NCBI RefSeq assembly: GCF_000685295.1
Contig: NZ_ARYL01000001.1
Location: forward strand, 248,001-312,000
Direction: 5' to 3'
DNA from: Hyphomonas oceanitis SCH89
Lineage (GTDB): Bacteria; Pseudomonadota; Alphaproteobacteria; Caulobacterales; Hyphomonadaceae
DNA: 64,000 bases
Positions 51,848 through 62,540 of this stretch are shown here, one piece after another (positions within the stretch are counted from its first letter, which is position 1; every line of letters begins with the position of its first letter). The notes under the pieces were generated by a model, which worked only from the letters and a program-made list of their open reading frames with translations, had not been told where the DNA came from and searched no databases. The translations under genes were made by a program, and so were the position numbers.

Positions 51848-52849
51848 TCAGACTTCGGTGAGATTGACCGCATGCCCCGTGATCGCTTCGACGGCAGCGT
51901 CGAGCACGTCGAGCCCTGCGCCGGGCTTGGGCGCGCGCTCTGACAGGACACGGCGCCAGGCGCGGGCCCCGGGCTGGCCATTGAACAGGCCAAGCATGTG
52001 GCGCGTCATGGCGTGGAGGCCTGTGCCGCGTTCGAGCTGGTCGGCCATATAGGGCATATAGGCGATGATCGCGTCATGGGCCGAGACAATCGGGGCGCCT
52101 GCCCAGCCGAAAGCTGCGTCGACCTCGCCCAGCAGTGACGGGTTCTGGTAGGCCGCGCGGCCGAGCATGACGCCATCGAAGACTTTCAGGTGGGTGCGGC
52201 ATTCCTCGATCGTGGTGATGCCGCCATTCAGCGTGATGGAAAGGTGCGGGCGCTCTGCTTTCAGGTCTGCGACGAGGCCATAGTCGAGCGGGGGGATGTC
52301 GCGGTTTTCCTTGGGGCTGAGGCCTTTCAGCCAGGCCTTGCGGGCATGGACGGTGAAATGCGTGCAGCCCCCGGCGGAGACCTTGTCGATGAAGGTGAAG
52401 AGGGTTTCGCGGGCGGGCATGTCGTCGATGGCGATGCGGCATTTGACGGTGATGGGCAGGTCTGGCTCGGCTGCGCGCATGGCAGCGACGCAGTCTGCCA
52501 CGAGGTCAGGCTCTGCCATGAGGCAGGCGCCGAAGCTGCCGGACTGGACGCGCGAGGAGGGGCAGCCGCAATTGAGGTTGATCTCTTCATAGCCCCAGCT
52601 GGCGCCGATGCTGGTGGCGCGTGCCAGTTTGGCTGGGTCAGAGCCGCCGAGCTGGAGCGCGGTGGGGTGGTTGTTGGGGTCCTGACGCAGCAGGCGGTCG
52701 GGGTCGCCATGGATGACGGCGTCGGCGGTGACCATCTCGGAATAGAGCAGCGCACTTTTCGTCAGGCAGCGATGGAAGGCGCGGCAATGCGCGTCGGTCC
52801 AGTCCATCATAGGTGCGACAGAAAATCTATGTACTTGATTTTTATTCAT
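51848..52849 (-). CDS. dusA: tRNA-dihydrouridine synthase A
   Basis: 333 residues, TIM barrel with FMN (RFSVAPMMDWTDAHCR; LNCGCPSSRVQSGSFGA; ITVKCRIAIDD; LNGGITT). It reduces uridine 20/20a in tRNA. Codons 1-13 (MNKNQVHRFSVAP) are AT-rich while the rest is GC-rich, showing that the 5' end was replaced when a mobile element integrated. The reading frame is intact, so the element restores the gene, as known for dusA insertions. Confidence 0.96.
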   Translation of the reverse strand: MNKNQVHRFSVAPMMDWTDAHCRAFHRCLTKSALLYSEMVTADAVIHGDPDRLLRQDPNNHPTALQLGGSDPAKLARATSIGASWGYEEINLNCGCPSSRVQSGSFGACLMAEPDLVADCVAAMRAAEPDLPITVKCRIAIDDMPARETLFTFIDKVSAGGCTHFTVHARKAWLKGLSPKENRDIPPLDYGLVADLKAERPHLSITLNGGITTIEECRTHLKVFDGVMLGRAAYQNPSLLGEVDAAFGWAGAPIVSAHDAIIAYMPYMADQLERGTGLHAMTRHMLGLFNGQPGARAWRRVLSERAPKPGAGLDVLDAAVEAITGHAVNLTEV

Positions 52850-52882: not shown

Positions 52883-52958
52883 CGTGTGCAATTCGTGTGC
52901 ACTGATTTGCACGCGTTTGTACCGGTTTTGATCCCTCTGTGCACACGGAGCGCACACG
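52883..52958. promoter_or_regulatory. Cluster of CGTGTGCA-type repeats upstream of the integrase
   Basis: CGTGTGCA at 52883 and 52894 (11-bp phasing), TGCACG at 52908, TGTGCACACG at 52938 and GCACACG at 52952 in inverse orientation. All lie between the att junction and the integrase ATG. They may be arm-type integrase sites or a repressor operator array. Confidence 0.5.
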
Positions 52959-52960
52959 AA

Positions 52961-54019
52961 ATGTCGTCAATCACGAAGCTTCCTTCCGGCAATTGGCGGG
53001 CACAGGTCCGCCGCAAAGGACGGTATGTCTCCCAGTCATTCCTGCGCCGCAAGGACGCCGAAGAATGGGCACTCAAAATGGAGCGCCGGGTGGACCGTGG
53101 AGAAAGCGTCTCCAAGCACCGCCCGGACCTTATAAACACGGTTGCCGATCTCGTCGATCTCCACATTGCCGACATGCTGGATGTACGCAAACCGCTGCGC
53201 CGTTCGAAGGCATACTCCCTGAACAAGCTGAGAGACGATATCGGCCACTTACGCCTTAACCAGATTGAGCGAGAGAGGATCATCGAGTTCGCAAGGGATC
53301 GCCGGAGCGAAGGTGCCGGCCCCGTCACCATTGCCATGGACATCTCCTACCTGAAGACCATCATGCTGCATGCGACCGCTGTTCACGGCGTGCCCCTTCA
53401 AGTCGAACAAGTTGATCTTGCGCGGGTGGCTCTCTTCCGGCTCGGCCTTGTCGGAAAGGGCCGTGAGCGTGACCGGCGCCCGACACAGGAAGAACTCGAC
53501 CAACTCATTGCTCACTTCGAATCCAATGAACGCCTGAAGTCACCCATGGCCCGGATCGTAAAGTTCGCGATCGCTACCGCGATGCGCCAGTCAGAAATCT
53601 GCTCAATCGAATGGTCGGACATTGATGAGCGCAAGCGTACGGTTCTTGTCCGCGACCGCAAGGACCCTCGCAACAAGGATGGAAACGACCAGCGTGTGCC
53701 GCTTGTCGACCTGGCGGGATATGACGCGTGGGCATTGCTTGCAGAACAGCGCGCATCCCGGCCCACCAAGGGCCGGATATTCCCATACAATCCGCGTTCG
53801 ATTGGCACAGCGTTCCGCCGCGCCTGCCAGGAACTAGAGATTGAAGACCTGCACTTTCACGATCTTCGACATGAAGGGACCAGCCGACTGTTCGAAGCGG
53901 GTCTCCAGATCGAACAGGTTGCGCTCGTGACAGGCCACAAGGACTGGAAAATGCTGAAGCGATACACCCATCTCAGTGCGGACATGATCGTCAATTTTGC
54001 GCGCGGCCGGAGTGCCTAA
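52961..54019 (+). CDS. int: Tyrosine recombinase/integrase
   Basis: 352 residues from ATG 52961 (GGAG 52947-52950). Arm-binding and core-binding domains occupy about 1-165; catalytic domain has Arg209 (ATAMRQSEICSIEW), Lys234, HDLR (H300, R303), His326 (TGHKDWKMLKRY) and Tyr335. All active residues are intact, so it is likely functional. It recombines the element into dusA, whose 5' end lies just to the left. Confidence 0.95.
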   Translation: MSSITKLPSGNWRAQVRRKGRYVSQSFLRRKDAEEWALKMERRVDRGESVSKHRPDLINTVADLVDLHIADMLDVRKPLRRSKAYSLNKLRDDIGHLRLNQIERERIIEFARDRRSEGAGPVTIAMDISYLKTIMLHATAVHGVPLQVEQVDLARVALFRLGLVGKGRERDRRPTQEELDQLIAHFESNERLKSPMARIVKFAIATAMRQSEICSIEWSDIDERKRTVLVRDRKDPRNKDGNDQRVPLVDLAGYDAWALLAEQRASRPTKGRIFPYNPRSIGTAFRRACQELEIEDLHFHDLRHEGTSRLFEAGLQIEQVALVTGHKDWKMLKRYTHLSADMIVNFARGRSA

Positions 54020-54443: not shown

Positions 54444-56396
54444 TCAGAAATCCGGCAGCATGTCTTTGTCGCCGCGATCCATGGCGACGGCGCGGCGAAC
54501 CGCGTCCAGGTGATCGGCATCACCGGCATCCTGTGTATCTTCCAGATCCGGCTGTTCATCGCTGGCGACGTCCTTGCTGCGCAGTTCGGGAGCCAAGGCA
54601 AGTTCCGGAACAGTTTCCAAACCGCCATCCGAGCGCTCACCGCCACTTCGCCGACTACCGTCGCCCTTCGCATCAGCCAGAGAGGTATCGCTCCATTCAT
54701 CATACGAAGAGCGTAGACTAAGTTGTCTGGGCGCGGGGGGAATGACACGATCAACAAAACTCCGATCGGCGTAGTATCGAAGCTTTTGCGCCCTGACGGG
54801 TGGTGCACCGGACACCATGACCAGTTCGTCAGCCGCCGGCAGCTGCATAATTTCGCCGGGCGTGAGAAGCGGTCGGCTCGTCTCCTGCCGCGAGACCATC
54901 ATGTGAGCCAGCCATGGCGCCAGCCTGTGCCCCGCATAGTTTTTTTGCGCGCGCAGCTCTGTCGCCGTTCCGAGCGCCTCTGAAACCCGTTTGGCGGTCC
55001 GCTCATCATTCGTCGCAAAAGCGATGCGTACGTGACAGTTGTCCAAGATCGAATTGTTGGGACCGTAGGCCTTTTCTATCTGGTTCAGGGATTGCGCAAT
55101 CAGGTAGGCCCGGATGCCGAACCCCGCGATGAACGCCAAAGTCTGCTCAAAGAAGTCGAGTCGCCCGAGCGCCGGAAACTCATCCAGCATCAGGAGCAAT
55201 TTGCGTCGTGCCGGGTCCGGCTTTTCTTCTGTCAACCTTCGTCCGATCTGGTTGAGTAGCAAGCGCATAAGAGGCTTGGTGCGCGACAGATCTGATGGCG
55301 GACACACTAGGTAGAGCGAAACAGGCCGGTCCGCACCGACAAGATCAGCAATGCGCCAATCACTTGCACCCGTGACAGTCGCGACGACCGGATCCTGATA
55401 GAGATCCAGAAAACTGAGCGCTGTCGACAAGACACCCGAGCGCTCGTTCTCCGATTTGTTCAGCAGTGACCTGGCCGTCTGTGCGACAACTGGATGCACA
55501 GAACGTCCCTTGTGCCGCGTGCTCATCATTGCGGTGAGAGTCGCCTCAAAGCTCCGCTTTGGATCAGACAAGAAGCGGGCACACCCCGACAGCGTCTTGT
55601 CCGTCTCAGCGTAGAGGACATGAAGGATAGTTCCGACAAGGAGTGCATGTCCGGTCTTTTCCCAGTGGTTGCGCCGTTCGAGACTGCCTTCGGGATCAAC
55701 CAGAATATCGGCAATGTTCTGCACATCGCGCACTTCCCGTTCGCCCCGCCGCACATCGAGCAGGGGATTGTAACGCGGTGACGAGGGATCGGTCGGATCG
55801 AACCTGATGCAGGTGCTGAATAGCGCTCGCCAGCCCGAGGTCAGGTCCCAATTCTCTCCCTTGATATCGTGAATGACCGCGCTGCCGGTCCAGGACAGGA
55901 GCGTCGGGATCACCAGCCCCACCCCCTTCCCCGACCGCGTGGGCGCAAAGGCCATGACATGCTCAGGCCCTGCATGCCTCAAATACCGCCCCTTCCACCG
56001 GCCGAGAAAAACTCCAGCGTCCGAGAAGAGACCGGCTGATTTCATCTCCTGAACCAACGCCCAGCGCGCCGACCCGTAGGTAGTGACATTCCGCTCATGT
56101 CGGCTGCGCATCACCGATCCGATGACTGCCGCCAGGATACCCAGACCGCCTCCACTTAGCGCAATCAGTCCTGCCCGGTTAAACACATCCGGCGCATAGG
56201 CCTCATAGGCATACCACCACTGATAAATCCGCCAGGGTTTGTAGACAGGTAGATCTACCACTACGAACCAGGGCCGCCCCAGAGCGGCCTGAAAATCCAG
56301 CGCCTCCGCTGCCCATTGCGTAGCTGCCCAAGTCGCACCAACAACTATCGCAAGAACGCCAACGATCTGACCCAGAAGGATTTTCGTGGGTGACAA
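54444..56396 (-). CDS. traG: VirD4/TraG-type type IV coupling protein
   Basis: 650 residues from TTG 56396: CTAGGAG lies 7 bp upstream and the product begins (M)SPTKILLGQ as homologues do; a GTG at 56441 adds 15 unlikely residues. Two N-terminal membrane helices, then Walker A APTRSGKGVG (about residues 151-160) and Walker B LLLMLDEFPALG. It couples relaxosome DNA to a type IV secretion channel. The C-terminus is acidic and Ser/Gly-rich. Confidence 0.94.
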   Translation of the reverse strand: MSPTKILLGQIVGVLAIVVGATWAATQWAAEALDFQAALGRPWFVVVDLPVYKPWRIYQWWYAYEAYAPDVFNRAGLIALSGGGLGILAAVIGSVMRSRHERNVTTYGSARWALVQEMKSAGLFSDAGVFLGRWKGRYLRHAGPEHVMAFAPTRSGKGVGLVIPTLLSWTGSAVIHDIKGENWDLTSGWRALFSTCIRFDPTDPSSPRYNPLLDVRRGEREVRDVQNIADILVDPEGSLERRNHWEKTGHALLVGTILHVLYAETDKTLSGCARFLSDPKRSFEATLTAMMSTRHKGRSVHPVVAQTARSLLNKSENERSGVLSTALSFLDLYQDPVVATVTGASDWRIADLVGADRPVSLYLVCPPSDLSRTKPLMRLLLNQIGRRLTEEKPDPARRKLLLMLDEFPALGRLDFFEQTLAFIAGFGIRAYLIAQSLNQIEKAYGPNNSILDNCHVRIAFATNDERTAKRVSEALGTATELRAQKNYAGHRLAPWLAHMMVSRQETSRPLLTPGEIMQLPAADELVMVSGAPPVRAQKLRYYADRSFVDRVIPPAPRQLSLRSSYDEWSDTSLADAKGDGSRRSGGERSDGGLETVPELALAPELRSKDVASDEQPDLEDTQDAGDADHLDAVRRAVAMDRGDKDMLPDF

Positions 56397-56729
56397 TGGA
56401 AGGCTCCTAGCAAGTGGGCTGGAGCATGACGTGCACGGCACAACCTGAATAGTGGCGCTCGAAGCCTATTCCGGCAAACCAATGCATTAGGACAACGCCG
56501 GAACGCTCTACTCCTTAATTGTCCAAACTTGAGTTTCAGAGCTAAGAAAGGTCACACCCTCGTGATAACCGGGGGACCAGCGGATCGCAGATCAGTGGGC
56601 TCAGCTTGAACCACATACAAGTCTCTTATGTCGTGCTGGCGGCACAAAAGGAGTCCATTTCAGAATCAAACCCGGAACGTTAAATCCCAATAAATCCAAG
56701 CACAAAATTCCCATTGATTCTCGGTACAA
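56397..56729. other. Non-coding gap between traG and the glycosylase gene
   Basis: 333 bp of AT-richer DNA with no convincing frame. It should hold the traG promoter (leftward) and the promoter of the plus-strand glycosylase gene. Apart from a GCGGCACAAAAGGAGTCC segment near 56641, which has a ribosome-site-like AAAGGAG but no following start, I see nothing distinct. Confidence 0.4.
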
Positions 56730-57518
56730 ATGATGATTCGCACGGCTATGGATCATTCAAATTATTTGCAATCTGCTTGGGCACACACCGGTGCAGAATT
56801 AGTGGCTATTAATCTGCCGGGACCCGAAGTCGAGCTCCTTCCTGGTGTGGTCTGGGGCCGAGCAGAGGACTTGCTCACCGCAGCGTTCTGGAAATACCAA
56901 GTCCAGATGCAACGAGAAGCAGAACGATATACACAATTCAAGTTGGGGCGGTCGCTGCTCGAAGAAGTAGCAGTATGTTTGCTCGGAGGGTATGGAATGC
57001 CCGCTGAGTTGGGGCTGGCTGCGTTTGAGAGGCTAAAAAGTGGTTGCTTGTTGGATGGGCGAGCATCGCCTGAAGCAATTGAAGATGCGCTCTCCGAACC
57101 GTTTCTAGTAACAGGTAAGGCTCGCAAATATCGCTTCATCAGGCAAAAGTCGCGGTACCTATCCGCAGCCTTGTCGAGTCTAGCGTCTCGCGATGTTCCA
57201 AAGGAGGCAGTGGCGCTACGCGATCATTTAACTTCCATGAACGGCATTGGCCCTAAAACAGCCTCCTGGATAGTAAGAAATCATCTTGGATCGGATGATA
57301 TTGCGATTCTTGACGTTCATATCATCCGTGCAGGAAAGCATATGGGTATCTACGATGGTAGCGCTGACCCTAATCGTCACTACTACCTCATGGAAAGCAA
57401 GTTTTTGGAGTTTTGCACTGCGATTGAAGAGCCCGCGAGCCTCGTAGATGCCATCATGTGGGACTACATGCGCCGGCTCGGTCGCGTTGCCCGAATAAGC
57501 GAAGAAGTGGTGCACTGA
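56730..57518 (+). CDS. 8-oxoguanine DNA glycosylase/AP lyase-like (HhH-GPD) protein
   Basis: 262 residues. Helix-hairpin-helix MNGIGPKTASWIVRNHLG holds Lys176 at the Schiff-base lysine position of OGG1, and AILDVH carries Asp195, the catalytic aspartate. These are the marks of Ogg-type base-excision enzymes. ATG 56748 is an alternative start; no clear ribosome site precedes either. Codons are AT-richer than the core. It ends 7 bp from the oppositely oriented SagB-like gene, so it is convergent with the cargo operon. Confidence 0.88.
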   Translation: MMIRTAMDHSNYLQSAWAHTGAELVAINLPGPEVELLPGVVWGRAEDLLTAAFWKYQVQMQREAERYTQFKLGRSLLEEVAVCLLGGYGMPAELGLAAFERLKSGCLLDGRASPEAIEDALSEPFLVTGKARKYRFIRQKSRYLSAALSSLASRDVPKEAVALRDHLTSMNGIGPKTASWIVRNHLGSDDIAILDVHIIRAGKHMGIYDGSADPNRHYYLMESKFLEFCTAIEEPASLVDAIMWDYMRRLGRVARISEEVVH

Positions 57519-57525
57519 ACACGGG

Positions 57526-58197
57526 TCAACGTCCGAAAACCGCTAAACCGAGTGCCGCAAAATCCTCGTGTGGTGGCCCCAAGGACTGCAGCGCCCCCGT
57601 GCCAAGCTGCCCGAGTGGGCAAAAGCCGTAACCGTACGCGTGAGCTGCGAGTGAGCAAGACTGCAACGCCGCTCCGGCATCTCGCCAGAGGAGCGATTCC
57701 GCTTCACGATAGTGAGACGACACAACCCGGCGATCACCAGCAAGTAAAATTACGTGTCCTTTGGCGTTCGCTTGAATGGCCAGAGCTTCTGTGACGGCCT
57801 CTTCTAAACCTGCCGGGTTCAGTACCTTTAGCGTAACAAATTTGTTCGGGCGATCACAATACAAGATCGGAGCGTCGACGTCTGGTCCAGACAGAATAAT
57901 TACATCGATTGGATGCAATGCGCCAGCTGAGATAAATGCCTTTCGGGCTAGTCCAGAGAGTGCATTTTTTCCCATCAGTTGCGGCGCGAAGAGGTGTTGA
58001 ATGAACCCACGTGTTTCTCGTAGCGACACTGGGTCGAATACTCGCCGCGTCCGACGGGCCGTAAAAACGTCGTCGAAATACCTGTCCGTTGAAAACGGCA
58101 CGCGCACGCTGAGAAGTTCAGAAGAGGCTTCCCATCCTGATTTCTCAACGATCCGAGTTACGTTGCCTCGAGGCGTTGGTTCAGTAGGCGGACCCAT
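57526..58197 (-). CDS. SagB/nitroreductase-like FMN oxidoreductase
   Basis: 223 residues. SagB-type motifs: RRTRRVF, SAGALHPIDVIIL, and WRDAGAALQSCSLAAHAYGYGFCPLG at the FMN site. Related enzymes oxidise thiazoline/oxazoline rings or reduce nitro groups; nothing here fixes a substrate. The product starts MGPPTE, with Gly exposed after Met removal. ATG overlaps the QueC-like stop by 17 bp with GGAGG 8 bp upstream. Last gene of the four-gene operon. Confidence 0.83.
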   Translation of the reverse strand: MGPPTEPTPRGNVTRIVEKSGWEASSELLSVRVPFSTDRYFDDVFTARRTRRVFDPVSLRETRGFIQHLFAPQLMGKNALSGLARKAFISAGALHPIDVIILSGPDVDAPILYCDRPNKFVTLKVLNPAGLEEAVTEALAIQANAKGHVILLAGDRRVVSSHYREAESLLWRDAGAALQSCSLAAHAYGYGFCPLGQLGTGALQSLGPPHEDFAALGLAVFGR

Positions 58198-58777
58198 TCA
58201 CCGCCTCCATCGTATCATAATGTTTTCGACAACCACGACAGAAACCACAGGCAAACTCAGCGACATGGCATGAATGCGACCAAGCCAAAATATCCATAGG
58301 CACTTTAGATGTCCGCACCAGCTCAACAGCATCAAAACCGATAGCAGGTGCTTCAACAGCCAATTCTCCTTCTTGAAGTGCAAATAGTTCGTTCATGGCA
58401 TCGACAAAGACCCGAGTCCCGTCGGCATGAAAGCCATCTGACTTTAGCGCACCGATCATCATTCGATTCACACCCTCCGCGTGACATCGCATTGCTGCGA
58501 CGGTGAGAAGGAATTGATTTCGGTAGGGCCACCATTCGCTTGCAGGTGCGCCCGATACCGGTGGTTGGTCAGATAGGTCGCCGCTTCCAAGTGCGGCGAT
58601 GTCCACTGTCAATATCTGATGTTCGATGCCCAGGCTCGAACAAACAGCCGATGCGGCTCTGATTTCACCAGGAGCGGGCCTCTGGCCGTAGTCTATAGTA
58701 ATGGCAATATTTGGCATCTTCCAATACGCGATTGAAACAGAGTCCATTCCTCCGGATAGGAGCAGAGCCGTCTTCAT
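58181..58777 (-). CDS. QueC-like 7-deazaguanine synthase homologue
   Basis: 198 residues from ATG 58777, which overlaps the upstream stop as ATGA. PP-loop LLSGGMDS (residues 6-13), YRNQFLLTVAAMR (substrate/dimer region of QueC) and four Zn-binding cysteines C170, C177, C180, C183 (HSCHVAEFACGFCRGC). Canonical QueC makes preQ0 from 7-carboxy-7-deazaguanine with ATP. No QueD, QueE or TGT is present, and the enzyme is shorter than typical QueC (about 230), so a distinct ligation reaction is likely. Third gene of the operon. Confidence 0.87.
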   Translation of the reverse strand: MKTALLLSGGMDSVSIAYWKMPNIAITIDYGQRPAPGEIRAASAVCSSLGIEHQILTVDIAALGSGDLSDQPPVSGAPASEWWPYRNQFLLTVAAMRCHAEGVNRMMIGALKSDGFHADGTRVFVDAMNELFALQEGELAVEAPAIGFDAVELVRTSKVPMDILAWSHSCHVAEFACGFCRGCRKHYDTMEAVNGSAY

Positions 58778-59970
58778 ACCCGCCACGCCAATAAATGCAG
58801 AGCACTGATGAAATCCTGATGAATGGTGCAGCCAGCGCCAACCGGCAACTTCATGTCGACATCTCTAACATTCTGCGCAACGCAGAATACAGGCGTCTTT
58901 TCTCGAACCGCATAGCCAATTTCAAATAGGGTTCCGGGGCTTGAACCATTCAAAATCGCGAAGACAGCGTCGCACGTCTCTAATCCTTCTAAGTCCAGCC
59001 GAACCACTTTTTCAGCAGGTCCTCGACCGACATCGTGAACAGGACTGAAAACTTCCATGCCCATCTGCCTCATGATTGAACGGGCTTCGTTTATGAGAAT
59101 TCGCTGTCCGAGTTCTCGAAAGGGACCAGCTAGGTATATGCGCCCCTTGTTCAAAATTACCGGGTCACGAACATGAGCGTCAGCATCTTCAGGCGAAATC
59201 ATTGGGAGCGCGCGGGTTTCGACATAACTTGCCACTGCATTTGAGGCATAGCGGGCGGCATCAACAGGTTCTGAACGCTCTATCGCCCAAGCATAAGCAA
59301 ATGCAGCAACGAAGACATCCCCCGAGCCGATCGTAAAGACAGAGTGCGCTTTGTAGGCCGGGACTTCGCCGAGCACGCCTTTTCGGCCAATGACAATCGC
59401 CCCCGATAATCCGTTTTTCACAACGACGAGCTCGGCATTCTCGCTTTCTAACACCGCTTTCGCTGCTACCTCGCCTCGAAGGCCAGACAATTTTTCAATC
59501 TCATGGGCGTTGGCAACAATCACAAGCCGCTCAGCTTCACCTCCCGTGTGTCGAAACCCTACTGGACTAGTAGGTGATTGAGGGTCGTATACGCACATGC
59601 CTGCGCGGACCTTGGGAACACATTCCATCATGCCAAACGAAACCGCTATGTCAGCTTCGACCTCAAATGGTGAACGGCGAGCGATTGCATCTGGTGAAGG
59701 ACTGATAGCGGGATCAGCCAAGCAGTGTATGTAATCAAATCCAATAAGCTGATCGCCTGGATGCGAAAAAGTTTGAATCCCAAACGCATCAAGATTGGCT
59801 AGTATCCGATCCGCACGGTCATCACTCGGAAGGACTGTGTGTAGTCTGACAGTGTCTACATGATCCGACAATGCCGCCGCCGCACGACCTGCCGACCCGA
59901 ATATCTGATTCCATTCCGGAAAAGCGCAACGTTCTCCATAGACACCGCCAACGACATCAATTTGTGTCAT
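58774..59970 (-). CDS. PfkB-type kinase fused to nucleoside 2-deoxyribosyltransferase
   Basis: 398 residues. Residues 1-265 are a ribokinase/PfkB domain ending in the anion-hole motif TIGSGDVFVAAFAYAW (catalytic Asp218). Residues 276-398 are a nucleoside 2-deoxyribosyltransferase-like domain (RIYLAGPF 277-284; CDAVFAILNGSSPGTLFEIGYA with Glu350 as predicted nucleophile). It could phosphorylate a nucleoside or sugar and cleave or transfer its base. ATG overlaps the small-protein stop and TGA overlaps the QueC-like start (both ATGA). Second gene of the operon. Confidence 0.85.
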   Translation of the reverse strand: MTQIDVVGGVYGERCAFPEWNQIFGSAGRAAAALSDHVDTVRLHTVLPSDDRADRILANLDAFGIQTFSHPGDQLIGFDYIHCLADPAISPSPDAIARRSPFEVEADIAVSFGMMECVPKVRAGMCVYDPQSPTSPVGFRHTGGEAERLVIVANAHEIEKLSGLRGEVAAKAVLESENAELVVVKNGLSGAIVIGRKGVLGEVPAYKAHSVFTIGSGDVFVAAFAYAWAIERSEPVDAARYASNAVASYVETRALPMISPEDADAHVRDPVILNKGRIYLAGPFRELGQRILINEARSIMRQMGMEVFSPVHDVGRGPAEKVVRLDLEGLETCDAVFAILNGSSPGTLFEIGYAVREKTPVFCVAQNVRDVDMKLPVGAGCTIHQDFISALHLLAWRV

Positions 59971-60317
59971 GCCGGACGGATCTCAATATCCACACGACCG
60001 CCCACAACTGATTTGACCTCGGCCTCGTAGGAGTAACCGCTCTCGAGGCACGCGATAATGTCAATTAGTTTTGGGGAAGTGATTGCCCCCGCTACAAGAC
60101 CGGCCGCGGTCTTTGCCACAACACGCTTACGCGGAGTTGTTTCAAGCTCGATATGCAGGATATCCATTGCAGAAAGAGCCGAAACGACCGCCGCGACTGG
60201 CGAGTTCAGTGCCGTTAACTCGACGATAGCGCACTTGTCGTTCTCTCCGCCTCCACCCCCCCCGGTCGGCGCACGCCAATCATCGCTGCTACTTCCACTG
60301 CCTCCGCCTCCAGACAT
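59967..60317 (-). CDS. Gly-rich small protein of the cargo operon
   Basis: 116 residues. Residues 1-24 are Gly/Ser-rich (MSGGGGSGSSSDDWRAPTGG then GGGG), disordered; the rest is a compact alpha/beta domain with Cys29 and Cys90. The pattern from residue 35 to the end (RVVAKTAAGLVAGAI ... VKSVVGGRVDIEIRP) faintly resembles a HIRAN-like small beta-barrel. An excellent ribosome site, TAGGAGGT, precedes ATG 60317. First gene of the operon. I do not recognise its function. Confidence 0.75.
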   Translation of the reverse strand: MSGGGGSGSSSDDWRAPTGGGGGGENDKCAIVELTALNSPVAAVVSALSAMDILHIELETTPRKRVVAKTAAGLVAGAITSPKLIDIIACLESGYSYEAEVKSVVGGRVDIEIRPA

Positions 60318-60460
60318 GTTTACCTCCTAAACTGTAAAGTTATCGGTACTTCTACCTCAAGGTGTCCCGATTCGGAAGATTTTTTGGTATCCGGTCAGGT
60401 GCTTAGGTGATGAGGCGCGATCTAAACCGCTGGAAACATAGACACCACGAATTGTAGTCT

Positions 60461-60475
60461 GACAGTTCAACTGTC
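60461..60475. promoter_or_regulatory. Perfect palindromic operator of the cargo operon
   Basis: GACAGTTCAACTGTC reads the same on both strands apart from the central base (7+1+7). It lies 11-25 bp downstream of the -10 box, where a repressor would block initiation. Confidence 0.65.
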
Positions 60476-60486
60476 TTCTGCTCGAA

Positions 60487-60515
60487 ATTATCTGCAAACT
60501 TCGTCCCTCAAACAA
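60487..60515 (-). promoter_or_regulatory. Sigma70-type promoter of the cargo operon
   Basis: On the minus strand TTGTTT (-35, 60515-60510), exactly 17 bp, then GATAAT (-10, 60492-60487; five of six bases match TATAAT). It drives the Gly-rich small protein gene and the three coupled genes, leaving a leader of about 160 nt. Confidence 0.6.
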
Positions 60516-60596: not shown

Positions 60597-62540
60597 CTAG
60601 CGTGTAAGGCCTTTTGTTCGGGAGAGAGCTGTCGAATACTCCAACCCTCGCGCCGTTTGATACACCGCGATTTCCCGTCCGAGCTGCTGGACCAATTGTC
60701 GTCGCCAAGGCACAAGCACAAACTCCTTCCCATTCCCGACCACCGCCATCCTCCCTTGCGCCAAGTCGACGGTCGTCTGCATCGTCCCGCGAAAGCTGCC
60801 CCCAGGCTGAAGCTCAGCCGCGCCCTGCCCCGTTCGCCGCGCCACATCTTTCGACGCCGTGAGTAATTCCTCCATTTTCAACTTAACCAATACTTCTTCC
60901 GAGACCCGTGCCTCACTCTGCGCCAGCACCCCCTGCCCGCGCAAAAAGTTCAGCCGCGCCCGTCTCTTGGCCGCCAATTCAACCTGTCCCATTCTCCCGT
61001 CTGAAGCATCGTCGAGCGCATCGAGCCAGGTCGCCCCCGGATTCTCCAACTGTTCACGGACACTGATCCAGGATCGAACTACGATCTGAGCACCGCCTGC
61101 GCGTGTTCGTTCGTAACCACCTGCACGTTCTAAGAAATCTGCTCCAACTGACCACGACCCATCCGAACTCCGGATCACCACTCTTGCCCGCCTCAGCGCC
61201 TCCAGCCGCCGCTTGTGCGCGAGTCGATAGGCGGCGCTCGATCCCGGCTCCGCCGCAGCATGCAGCGCGTCAGAATAGATTCCGCCTGACCGCTCCGCGA
61301 TCCTCGCTATTGTTCGATCTGACGCACGCGGCTCGCTAATCGCGGTCGACACTTCGACAATCGCCCCTTTCGGCGGCATGCTTCCGGCACCAAGCCCGGC
61401 TGCATCAACATGCCAGGTCCCGCCATCGAACTCCCGCACGAGCAAATATCGCGTATCGCGCAATTCATCGGCTGGGCCTGATGCAATCACTTCTCCAAGA
61501 ACGGGGCCCGTGCCCGGCGCCCTCGTCTCGAACATCTTCAGGTCATCGATCCGCGCCTGCGTGTGGGACGCTGACAAGGTCCGGATAATATCCCCCCTGC
61601 GGCCCATCTGCCGAAGCGTATCGGCCCACCCCTGCTCCATCTGGTATTGACCGGCACTCATCCGCGATGCGAGCCGGAGACCTTCAAGATGCTTCAGCCG
61701 GGCAAGTTTGAGCGACCGCTGGAACCGGTCCGCACTCGTAGAGGGTGGCGGGATCGCGACAATCCCCTCACGCGCCTCGCTCAGCAGTTGACGATCAATC
61801 CCTGTAAATCTGTCCTGGCTGATCTCGCTCTGACGGGCTCGCATGATTTCAAGATCTCGGCGTGGGCCGAGCGTTTGGGTAACGATATCCTCCGCCTGCC
61901 GCCGCAGGCCTTGTGTCAGGTATTCGCGGGCGATGATCAGATCGCGTCCGAGCTGGTCCTTGCCCCGAATGACGATATGCGTGTGAGGATGGCCGGTATT
62001 GTGATGATCGACAGCCAACCAGTCGAGGCGCGTTCCGAGATCACTTTCCATCCGGTCCATTAGCTGACGCATGTTTGATTTGAGATCACCCATCTGGTCG
62101 CCGTCTTCCGGCGATACGATGATCCGAAATTGGTGGCGGTCGCTTTCGCTACGTTCAAGGAATTCCCGCGCCCCAATTCCCTCTTCCCGTGAGGAGTACA
62201 ATTCACCGCCACGCCCGTCCCGATCTACGCCGTCACGCTGGAGATATTTGAGATGGGCGTTGAAGACCGCGCGCCCGGCGCCGGATTTCGACCGGGCGAT
62301 ATGCACTTTGACCATGACACGCCGCATGCGGTGCCCGGGCAGCCGCAGGCCTCGGACAGACGCCATGCGTCCGGCCACCGCGCCGCGCCCATATCGGCTT
62401 CCGGTAAAGCCTGGCTTTCCCTTCGGTTTCGCAAGGCGGGCAGCAACCTTCGCGACACGCTGCCGGAACCGCTTGCCACCTGCGGCGCCCACATCCCGGA
62501 TACGTCCCAGGCGCGGCGTGAAATCGTCCTCGGCGCTCAT
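60597..62540 (-). CDS. DUF3363/VirD2-type relaxase (mobilization nuclease)
   Basis: 647 residues. The N-terminal relaxase has the three-His metal motif HHNTGHPHTHIVI (about residues 178-190) and an Arg/Lys-rich leader. The DUF3363 region follows. It nicks oriT and pilots the strand into the conjugation channel, partner of the TraG coupling protein. Normally the relaxase gene is followed directly by traG; here a 4-kb cargo intervenes. TraF-like peptidase lies upstream. Confidence 0.93.
   Translation of the reverse strand: MSAEDDFTPRLGRIRDVGAAGGKRFRQRVAKVAARLAKPKGKPGFTGSRYGRGAVAGRMASVRGLRLPGHRMRRVMVKVHIARSKSGAGRAVFNAHLKYLQRDGVDRDGRGGELYSSREEGIGAREFLERSESDRHQFRIIVSPEDGDQMGDLKSNMRQLMDRMESDLGTRLDWLAVDHHNTGHPHTHIVIRGKDQLGRDLIIAREYLTQGLRRQAEDIVTQTLGPRRDLEIMRARQSEISQDRFTGIDRQLLSEAREGIVAIPPPSTSADRFQRSLKLARLKHLEGLRLASRMSAGQYQMEQGWADTLRQMGRRGDIIRTLSASHTQARIDDLKMFETRAPGTGPVLGEVIASGPADELRDTRYLLVREFDGGTWHVDAAGLGAGSMPPKGAIVEVSTAISEPRASDRTIARIAERSGGIYSDALHAAAEPGSSAAYRLAHKRRLEALRRARVVIRSSDGSWSVGADFLERAGGYERTRAGGAQIVVRSWISVREQLENPGATWLDALDDASDGRMGQVELAAKRRARLNFLRGQGVLAQSEARVSEEVLVKLKMEELLTASKDVARRTGQGAAELQPGGSFRGTMQTTVDLAQGRMAVVGNGKEFVLVPWRRQLVQQLGREIAVYQTARGLEYSTALSRTKGLTR

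Follow-up and report, generated by a model that had tools for sequence, protein, structure and literature searches.

What do five tightly packed genes do between the relaxase and the coupling protein of a conjugative element, and do they belong together? The question is raised by Hyphomonas oceanitis SCH89 (assembly GCF_000685295.1), in a stretch of 64,000 nucleotides of contig NZ_ARYL01000001.1 (positions 248,001 to 312,000, forward strand), hereafter called the window. An earlier note, made from the letters of this DNA alone, had described four overlapping minus-strand genes and a convergent OGG-like gene 7 nt away, and had taken them for an undescribed defence or modification system that builds or cleaves a modified purine. 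All five open reading frames (ORFs) were found where that note had placed them, and the whole cassette covers window positions 56730-60317:

59967..60317, minus strand: GLY, a protein of 116 amino acids (aa) with a Gly/Ser-rich tail and a small conserved domain; proposed nucleobase acceptor at Ser2
60234..60317, minus strand: N-terminal tail of GLY, residues 1-28, ending at the first conserved Cys
58774..59970, minus strand: PfkB-NDT, a PfkB-type kinase fused to a nucleoside deoxyribosyltransferase (NDT), named from its domain matches
58777..59148, minus strand: NDT domain of PfkB-NDT, about residues 275-398, with catalytic-type Glu and Asp kept in 97 of 99 sequences
58181..58777, minus strand: QueC-like, a QueC-family ATP-dependent enzyme of 'Cluster 4', with an ATG start and four zinc-type Cys
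57526..58197, minus strand: SagB-like, a flavin mononucleotide (FMN) oxidoreductase whose closest PDB sequences are the thiazoline oxidases CyaGox and BmdC
56730..57518, plus strand: OGG-like HhH-GPD glycosylase, with catalytic-type Lys and Asp kept in 86 of 87 sequences

Transcription runs from GLY through PfkB-NDT and QueC-like to SagB-like, with the OGG-like gene on the opposite strand. ATGA overlaps join GLY to PfkB-NDT and PfkB-NDT to QueC-like, the QueC-like and SagB-like genes overlap by 17 nt, and the SagB-like and OGG-like genes converge across a 7 nt gap. The QueC-like protein is 198 aa long from its ATG, and an alternative GTG start is present at 58786. Pfam matches were obtained for PF06508 (2e-24), PF05014 (1e-15), PF00294 (2.7e-15), PF22175 (Ogg-HhH, 1.2e-13) and PF00881 (3.7e-5), whereas GLY had no match in Pfam, PADLOC or NCBIfam at E <= 1, no PHROG match at E <= 0.01 and no sequence relative in the PDB at E <= 1.

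On balance, the cassette is probably a mobile anti-phage or anti-mobile-element module that conjugates a guanine-type base to a protein N-terminus, and it is best read as a further lineage of QueC-based immune systems with new partner proteins. This reading is drawn from sequence-level observations: genes that travel together, a setting among defence genes, catalytic-type residues that are kept, and a near-fixed start of GLY on a variable tail. The defence or modification system proposed by the earlier note stands in its conserved operon, its defence context and its kinship to QueC-based immunity; its free modified purine fares less well, since the GLY tail resembles the known or proposed substrates of QueC-family enzymes, so that a protein-conjugated base is the likelier product.

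The earlier note had proposed that the neighbourhoods of the 58181-58777 protein be searched, and the full set of five genes proved to be present at 82 of 100 loci (for the genome loci, 71 of 79), in many phyla and among defence genes. The set of 100, searched with iterated profiles, comprises the window, 14 plasmid loci, 79 genome loci and 6 viral contigs; within it L009 and L086 are one record, and L008 and L009 are near copies. A profile of 13 QueC-like relatives retrieved 271 encoding stretches from one-per-species genomes, and because the best 80 of them were taken, giving 79 loci, the genome loci are biased to close kin. Taken singly, GLY is present in 94 loci, PfkB-NDT in 97, the SagB-like gene in 87 and OGG in 86. 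Four of the six loci without GLY start at or near a contig edge, and the other two (L050, L051) look decayed: one has a truncated PfkB-NDT, in the other this gene was not found, and neither shows a convincing trace of GLY. The order GLY, PfkB-NDT, QueC, SagB-like is repeated across phyla, and by their record titles the loci belong to Pseudomonadota, Bacteroidota, Verrucomicrobiota, Myxococcota, Acidobacteriota, Spirochaetota, Campylobacterota and Cyanobacteria. OGG is encoded convergently downstream at 59 loci, and at 25 it precedes the other genes on their strand. The distance matrices of the five proteins correlate with r of 0.66-0.82 over 81 loci, values that none of 500 permutations reached for any pair; this fits joint inheritance, although the values are uncorrected for shared species history. 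Three haloarchaeal plasmids carry GLY, PfkB-NDT and QueC, the SagB-like and OGG genes being unmatched in the stretch covered. The cassette is rare in its own class, where its QueC-like gene was found in 2 of 385 genomes, the source genome counted, and it is also plasmid-borne (14 loci). A megablast search of plasmids with the region gave no hits. A phage collection yielded 85 records, all below 60% identity; the 20 listed stand at about 30% and are QueC-like where annotated.

The surroundings of these loci are rich in defence genes. A sample of 124 neighbour proteins of the cassette (from 468 ORFs around the genome loci; those scanned were of 150-900 aa and at most 4.5 kb away, core genes and methylase excluded) matched 183 PADLOC families at E <= 1e-15, compared with 3 families, QueC itself included, for 124 control proteins around canonical queC (from 279 ORFs of 150-900 aa within about 10 kb, in 20 carrier genomes). 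A single protein can match many models, so that counts of families are not counts of proteins; the gap between the two neighbourhoods is large despite this family-level counting. Among the 25 families listed are Gabija, prokaryotic Argonaute, Hachiman, type I and IV restriction, PD-Lambda-1, Druantia, dGTPase and AriA.

GLY is the protein on which the reading turns. Its domain has an invariant Cys, Gly and Cys in alignments A3 and A4, and the tail before the first Cys varies in content and from 6 to 188 residues in length (median 22; lengths and residue counts are based on starts picked by motif). When starts were chosen by Shine-Dalgarno score alone, the protein began with MSG in 87 of 95 cases, MSS in 3, MGG in 2 and MTG in 1, and the chance of SG from tail composition alone is 0.044. 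At L096 this choice gives MEEVLSGSG where a TTG start would give MSGSG, and the GLY of L060 has no scorable start. According to the accessible text of PMC13279940, the MGGS start of the CD-NTases of type IV CBASS (cyclic-oligonucleotide-based anti-phage signalling system) is the site that the QueC-like Cap9 modifies, and QatB, for which such a modification is proposed, starts with MGTS, its Gly2 being required for defence. The GLY N-terminus resembles both, and this parallel, an analogy, is the core of the proposed conjugation. At loci with a SagB-like gene, all 84 GLY ORFs counted have Ser or Thr as residue 2, and in the 13 at loci without one it is Gly or Cys in 4 and Ser in 9 (Fisher p 2e-4). 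This table was compiled by hand, with L107 and L060 omitted, L106 and L108 added, L096 read from its TTG and L013 from its annotated start; because 9 of 13 keep Ser and only about two independent clades carry the contrast, it is taken as a lead only. The haloarchaeal GLY proteins (L013, L014, L106) contain the conserved domain twice and start MCGGG, MGGGS and MGGGG.

The enzymes of the cassette retain catalytic-type residues. Of the 101 QueC-like sequences, 100-101 have SGGxDS, RN and the four Cys, and all 101 have the Asp that aligns with the one reading the guanine edge in QueC and Cap9. Their profile matches QueC (1.1e-14) and Cap9 (9nto, 4.5e-14) in the PDB, with Tyr-x-Asp of these proteins aligned to His-x-Asp. 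The presumed catalytic Asp of PfkB and the presumed catalytic Glu and Asp of NDT are conserved in 97 of 99 sequences. The SagB-like profile matches CyaGox (3.8e-18), BmdC (6.7e-12) and McbC (0.003), although the protein falls under the NCBIfam SagB cut-off (23.2 bits against 78.4 for TIGR03605). One Arg at the FMN site and a catalytic-type Tyr are kept in 87 of 87 sequences, and by manual count, with a two-residue offset in chain numbering, this Tyr aligns with Tyr260 of BmdC, a conserved active-site Tyr in the accessible text of PMC8795117. The likeness to the SagB, CyaGox and BmdC azoline oxidases extends over the catalytic-domain profile, the FMN-phosphate Arg region and the Tyr; unlike them, the window protein of about 223 aa stands alone, with no non-ribosomal peptide synthetase or YcaO gene in the interval.

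The conjugation would begin with methionine aminopeptidase uncovering Ser2 of GLY. The QueC-like enzyme would then adenylate a carboxylated guanine-like base (7-carboxy-7-deazaguanine or a relative) and join the activated base to the Ser2 amine, as Cap9 does on the CD-NTase. Where present, the SagB-like FMN enzyme would oxidise the conjugate; PfkB-NDT may bind or modify the tethered base, adding sugar and then phosphate, in place of the TGT-like (tRNA-guanine transglycosylase-like) Cap10, for which the NDT domain is a plausible stand-in; and the target of OGG would be either DNA or the tethered base. The modified GLY would finally serve as sensor or effector. The steps from the SagB-like enzyme onwards, together with the trigger, are the least certain parts of this scheme. 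QueC itself works in two steps, the second ATP step converting an amide to a nitrile (PMC13329287, accessible text). An elaboration suggested by the match of the SagB-like protein to thiazoline oxidases and by the residue-2 contrast in GLY, and considered unlikely, is that the amide between Ser2 and a deazaguanine-type base is activated by the second ATP step of the QueC-like enzyme and closed by the Ser hydroxyl to an oxazoline, which the SagB-like enzyme would oxidise to an oxazole; NDT and PfkB would add sugar and phosphate, and the resulting protein, bearing an N-terminal nucleotide analogue, would act as an immune signal or a polymerase trap.

Several observations weigh against conjugation of this base to this residue. 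The base-stacking Tyr of QueC and Cap9 is His in 99 of 101 QueC-like sequences. One GLY at L107 has no start that yields MSG, and at L013 the Shine-Dalgarno choice is an internal GTG while the annotated start gives MCGGG. Canonical QueC (at least 184 bits) is encoded by 41 of 50 carrier genomes, hand-picked from the 79; the other 9 lack it (best PF06508 match at most 100.7 bits), and among these a QueD-family match was found in 6 and none in 3, whose cassettes are complete. Since these three carriers have neither QueC nor QueD, 7-carboxy-7-deazaguanine is perhaps unavailable to them, and the base may be a different one, unless those cassettes are idle or externally fed. The QueC/QueD follow-up drew on 15 of the 50 genomes and a tgt search on 10, and tgt was present in 10 of 10, including the three without QueC and QueD. 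The source genome has a single copy of the QueC-like gene and encodes canonical QueC and QueD separately; a QueE query taken from it was too insensitive, missing genome G386 despite its canonical QueC, and the result was not used.

Part of the cassette is already in print. The pair of QueC with a PfkB-PF05014 neighbour is 'Cluster 4' of the QueC family PF06508, for which purine salvage was suggested (PMC13329287, accessible text), and the window QueC-like gene belongs to it: the signature CH(x)5CxxCxGCxK is matched by C173 H174, C180, C183, G, C186 and K188, each signature Cys is kept in 100 of 101 QueC-like sequences, and the PfkB-PF05014 neighbour is present in the window and in 97 of 100 loci. 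For the cluster motif YGQ(x)6E the window protein has Y33 G34 Q35 and E41, counted as YGQ(x)5E. The description of the operon as undescribed therefore fails for the pair, which falls in a named cluster with a purine salvage reading, and holds for the remainder as far as was searched: in the main text of PMC13329287 a word search met none of the terms nitroreductase, SagB, glycosylase and TIR, and 'glycine' a single time, in connection with QatB. Among the titles and abstracts listed by literature searches with bioRxiv and most subscription journals outside their scope, none dealt with the five-gene cassette, and these searches found nothing in print on the association of the other three genes with the pair.

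Type IV CBASS and qatABCD are the immune systems closest to the cassette. Type IV CBASS carries an OGG-like protein. Its Cap9 has the base-reading Asp of the cassette enzyme, the neighbouring Tyr being His in the cassette, and its partner protein likewise has a conserved N-terminus of small residues and Gly; the match is not exact, since position 2 is Gly in CBASS and mostly Ser in GLY, which begins MSG rather than MGG in 87 of 95 cases and MGG in 2 of 95 and in L106. The cassette differs further in having no CD-NTase and no TGT (Cap10), with GLY, PfkB-NDT and the SagB-like protein there. With qatABCD it shares a QueC-family enzyme and a flexible-tailed partner with a conserved N-terminal motif, but the cassette interval has no QatA ATPase or QatD TatD nuclease, and its 198-aa QueC-like protein is without the N- and C-terminal extensions of QatC. 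It retains the base-reading Asp, which is lost from QatC, where Thr occupies the two base-recognition positions (PMC13279940, accessible text). The absence of CD-NTase, TGT, QatA and TatD claimed by the earlier note holds for the relaxase-coupling protein interval, because no plausible gene beyond the five was seen there, the rest of the window being outside that search. Its further claim, that a sugar kinase, a base-transferase and an FMN enzyme replace these proteins, is to be amended as regards TGT, for which the NDT domain is a plausible substitute and which a related operon carries fused to TIR.

That operon, on two rhizobial plasmids (L109:2706-7068 and L110:2658-7069), has, one after another, PfkB, a TIR-TGT fusion, OGG, QueC and a small TIR protein, with PADLOC matches at 1.8e-22 for TGT and 7.2e-29 for QueC. 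The L109 kinase matches the window PfkB-NDT family over its full length (290 bits), with most NDT residues gone. The small TIR/ThsB-like protein starts MGGGS in 5 of 5 loci (L109, L110, L114-L116); L114-L116 represent 3 of 385 genomes of the class, and these short loci show the TIR-TGT part, OGG and QueC and do not reach the kinase position. The likeness to the cassette lies in homologous PfkB (L109, L110), OGG, QueC and a tail-bearing partner protein; the differences are TIR instead of GLY, the presence of TGT, a degenerate NDT, no SagB-like gene seen in the annotated neighbourhood, and a QueC outside Cluster 4. In a tree of 51 sequences, which did not include Cap9 or QatC, Cluster 4 forms one group (100/100) and the TIR-linked QueC falls outside it, subject to a long-branch warning. 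In this comparison TIR occupies the place of the CBASS CD-NTase and of the window GLY, and the decay of NDT goes with the presence of TGT. The rhizobial operon looks like a relative of type IV CBASS built on TIR, with no CD-NTase in the row; literature searches, limited to titles and abstracts and with bioRxiv and most subscription journals outside their scope, turned up no description of it.

Other explanations of the cassette have to be weighed against these data. The purine salvage already published for Cluster 4 (PMC13329287, accessible text), in which QueC-like and PfkB-NDT would recycle a purine and the remaining genes would be accessory, draws on the fact that both proteins come from nucleobase-handling families, but it was rejected as the main reading because of the rare, plasmid- and island-borne distribution and the PADLOC-rich neighbourhoods relative to the control; VUT, the sole transporter type searched, is near just 6 of 100 loci, a relative containing TIR exists, and salvage is rated the least probable of the explanations considered. 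Hardly more probable is a pathway akin to those of ribosomally synthesised and post-translationally modified peptides, in which GLY would be a precursor whose Gly/Ser part is converted to azoles by the SagB-like enzyme, yielding a toxin or signal. The azoline oxidases at the top of the PDB matches and the Gly/Ser-rich tail speak for it, yet the near-fixed part of GLY is its first residues only, the tail differs between loci in both length and content, and conservation is otherwise found in a C-terminal domain. The SagB-like gene is missing in 13 of 100 loci, and the annotations of neighbouring genes name neither YcaO nor an export gene (no profile search was made for them).

Two further explanations are improbable, though less so. 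A modified purine nucleotide could enter or mark DNA, with OGG, and a Dam-type methylase or Mrr-type nuclease nearby, protecting self DNA or excising a phage base. NDT and PfkB are indeed nucleoside-type enzymes, the catalytic-type Lys and Asp of OGG are conserved in 86 of 87 sequences, a DNA adenine methylase occurs in 32 of 100 loci and accompanies convergent OGG in 31 of 59, and 24 of 100 loci have a dGTPase-like gene at most 8 kb away. Such a route leaves the near-fixed MSG start of GLY without explanation, as it does the MGGG start of TIR in the related operon, and the haloarchaeal and some other loci keep GLY, PfkB-NDT and QueC without OGG or SagB-like. NDT proteins are known as retron effectors, and the NDT domain might likewise be triggered to destroy a nucleotide such as NAD+, with GLY and QueC as its regulator. 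The degenerate NDT residues of the rhizobial operon with its TIR proteins could reflect a swap of effectors; since that operon gains a TGT domain too, the swap was perhaps of NDT for TGT instead. Conjugation of a guanine-type base to GLY remains the preferred reading.

If it is true, attachment of a base to an N-terminus would be a general immune chemistry that extends beyond type IV CBASS and Qat, with CD-NTase, QatB, GLY and TIR as interchangeable partner proteins, and a cluster filed as purine salvage (271 relatives in the one-per-species collection) would become a testable immune system. The kinase and glycosylase partners would gain a role, a new protein modification, possibly an oxazole-linked base, would be predicted, and the rhizobial bridge operon would let the roles of TGT and NDT be compared.

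The cassette fills the interval between the following two genes of the window:

54444..56441, minus strand: type IV coupling protein, one flank of the cargo site
60597..62540, minus strand: DUF3363/VirD2-type relaxase, the other flank

It is cargo in the variable site of a conjugative element, and the cargo position in an integrative and conjugative element given by the earlier note is supported by relatives, in which the content of the junction differs across the order (L118-L136 and L137-L144). The relaxase was matched in 85 of 299 genomes of the order. Among 19 fetched relatives (L118-L136), the coupling protein starts about 50-80 bp past the relaxase in 11, as measured from tblastn ends, and different cargo occupies the junction in 8: an RND-type efflux block in four (the family was tested in L138 only, and the others begin alike) and one gene each, Fic, GmrSD, GGDEF or GIY-YIG, in the other four. 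A cassette of the same kind also adjoins a coupling protein on a pair of Rhodobacterales plasmids that are near copies. In the window a Dus gene (51848-52849, minus strand) directly adjoins an integrase of the phage-integrase family (52886-54019, plus strand), which suggests an element integrated at dus; the contig ends 161 bases past the window.

Among individual loci, L078 has a tandem pair of cassettes about 6 kb apart. L107 (Azospirillum brasilense) has a divergent cassette in which OGG is present, SagB-like is unmatched and GLY is without an MSG start, and a second GLY with a partial PfkB-NDT gene lies on the other strand and runs off the stretch. In L007 the dGTPase-like gene stands directly behind QueC, the usual place of the SagB-like gene. 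The VUT-family gene or a homologue is found near the cassette in L008 (7308-7847), L009, L086, L044, L053 and L031, two of which are one record, and it is annotated as queuosine salvage in L008 and L009.

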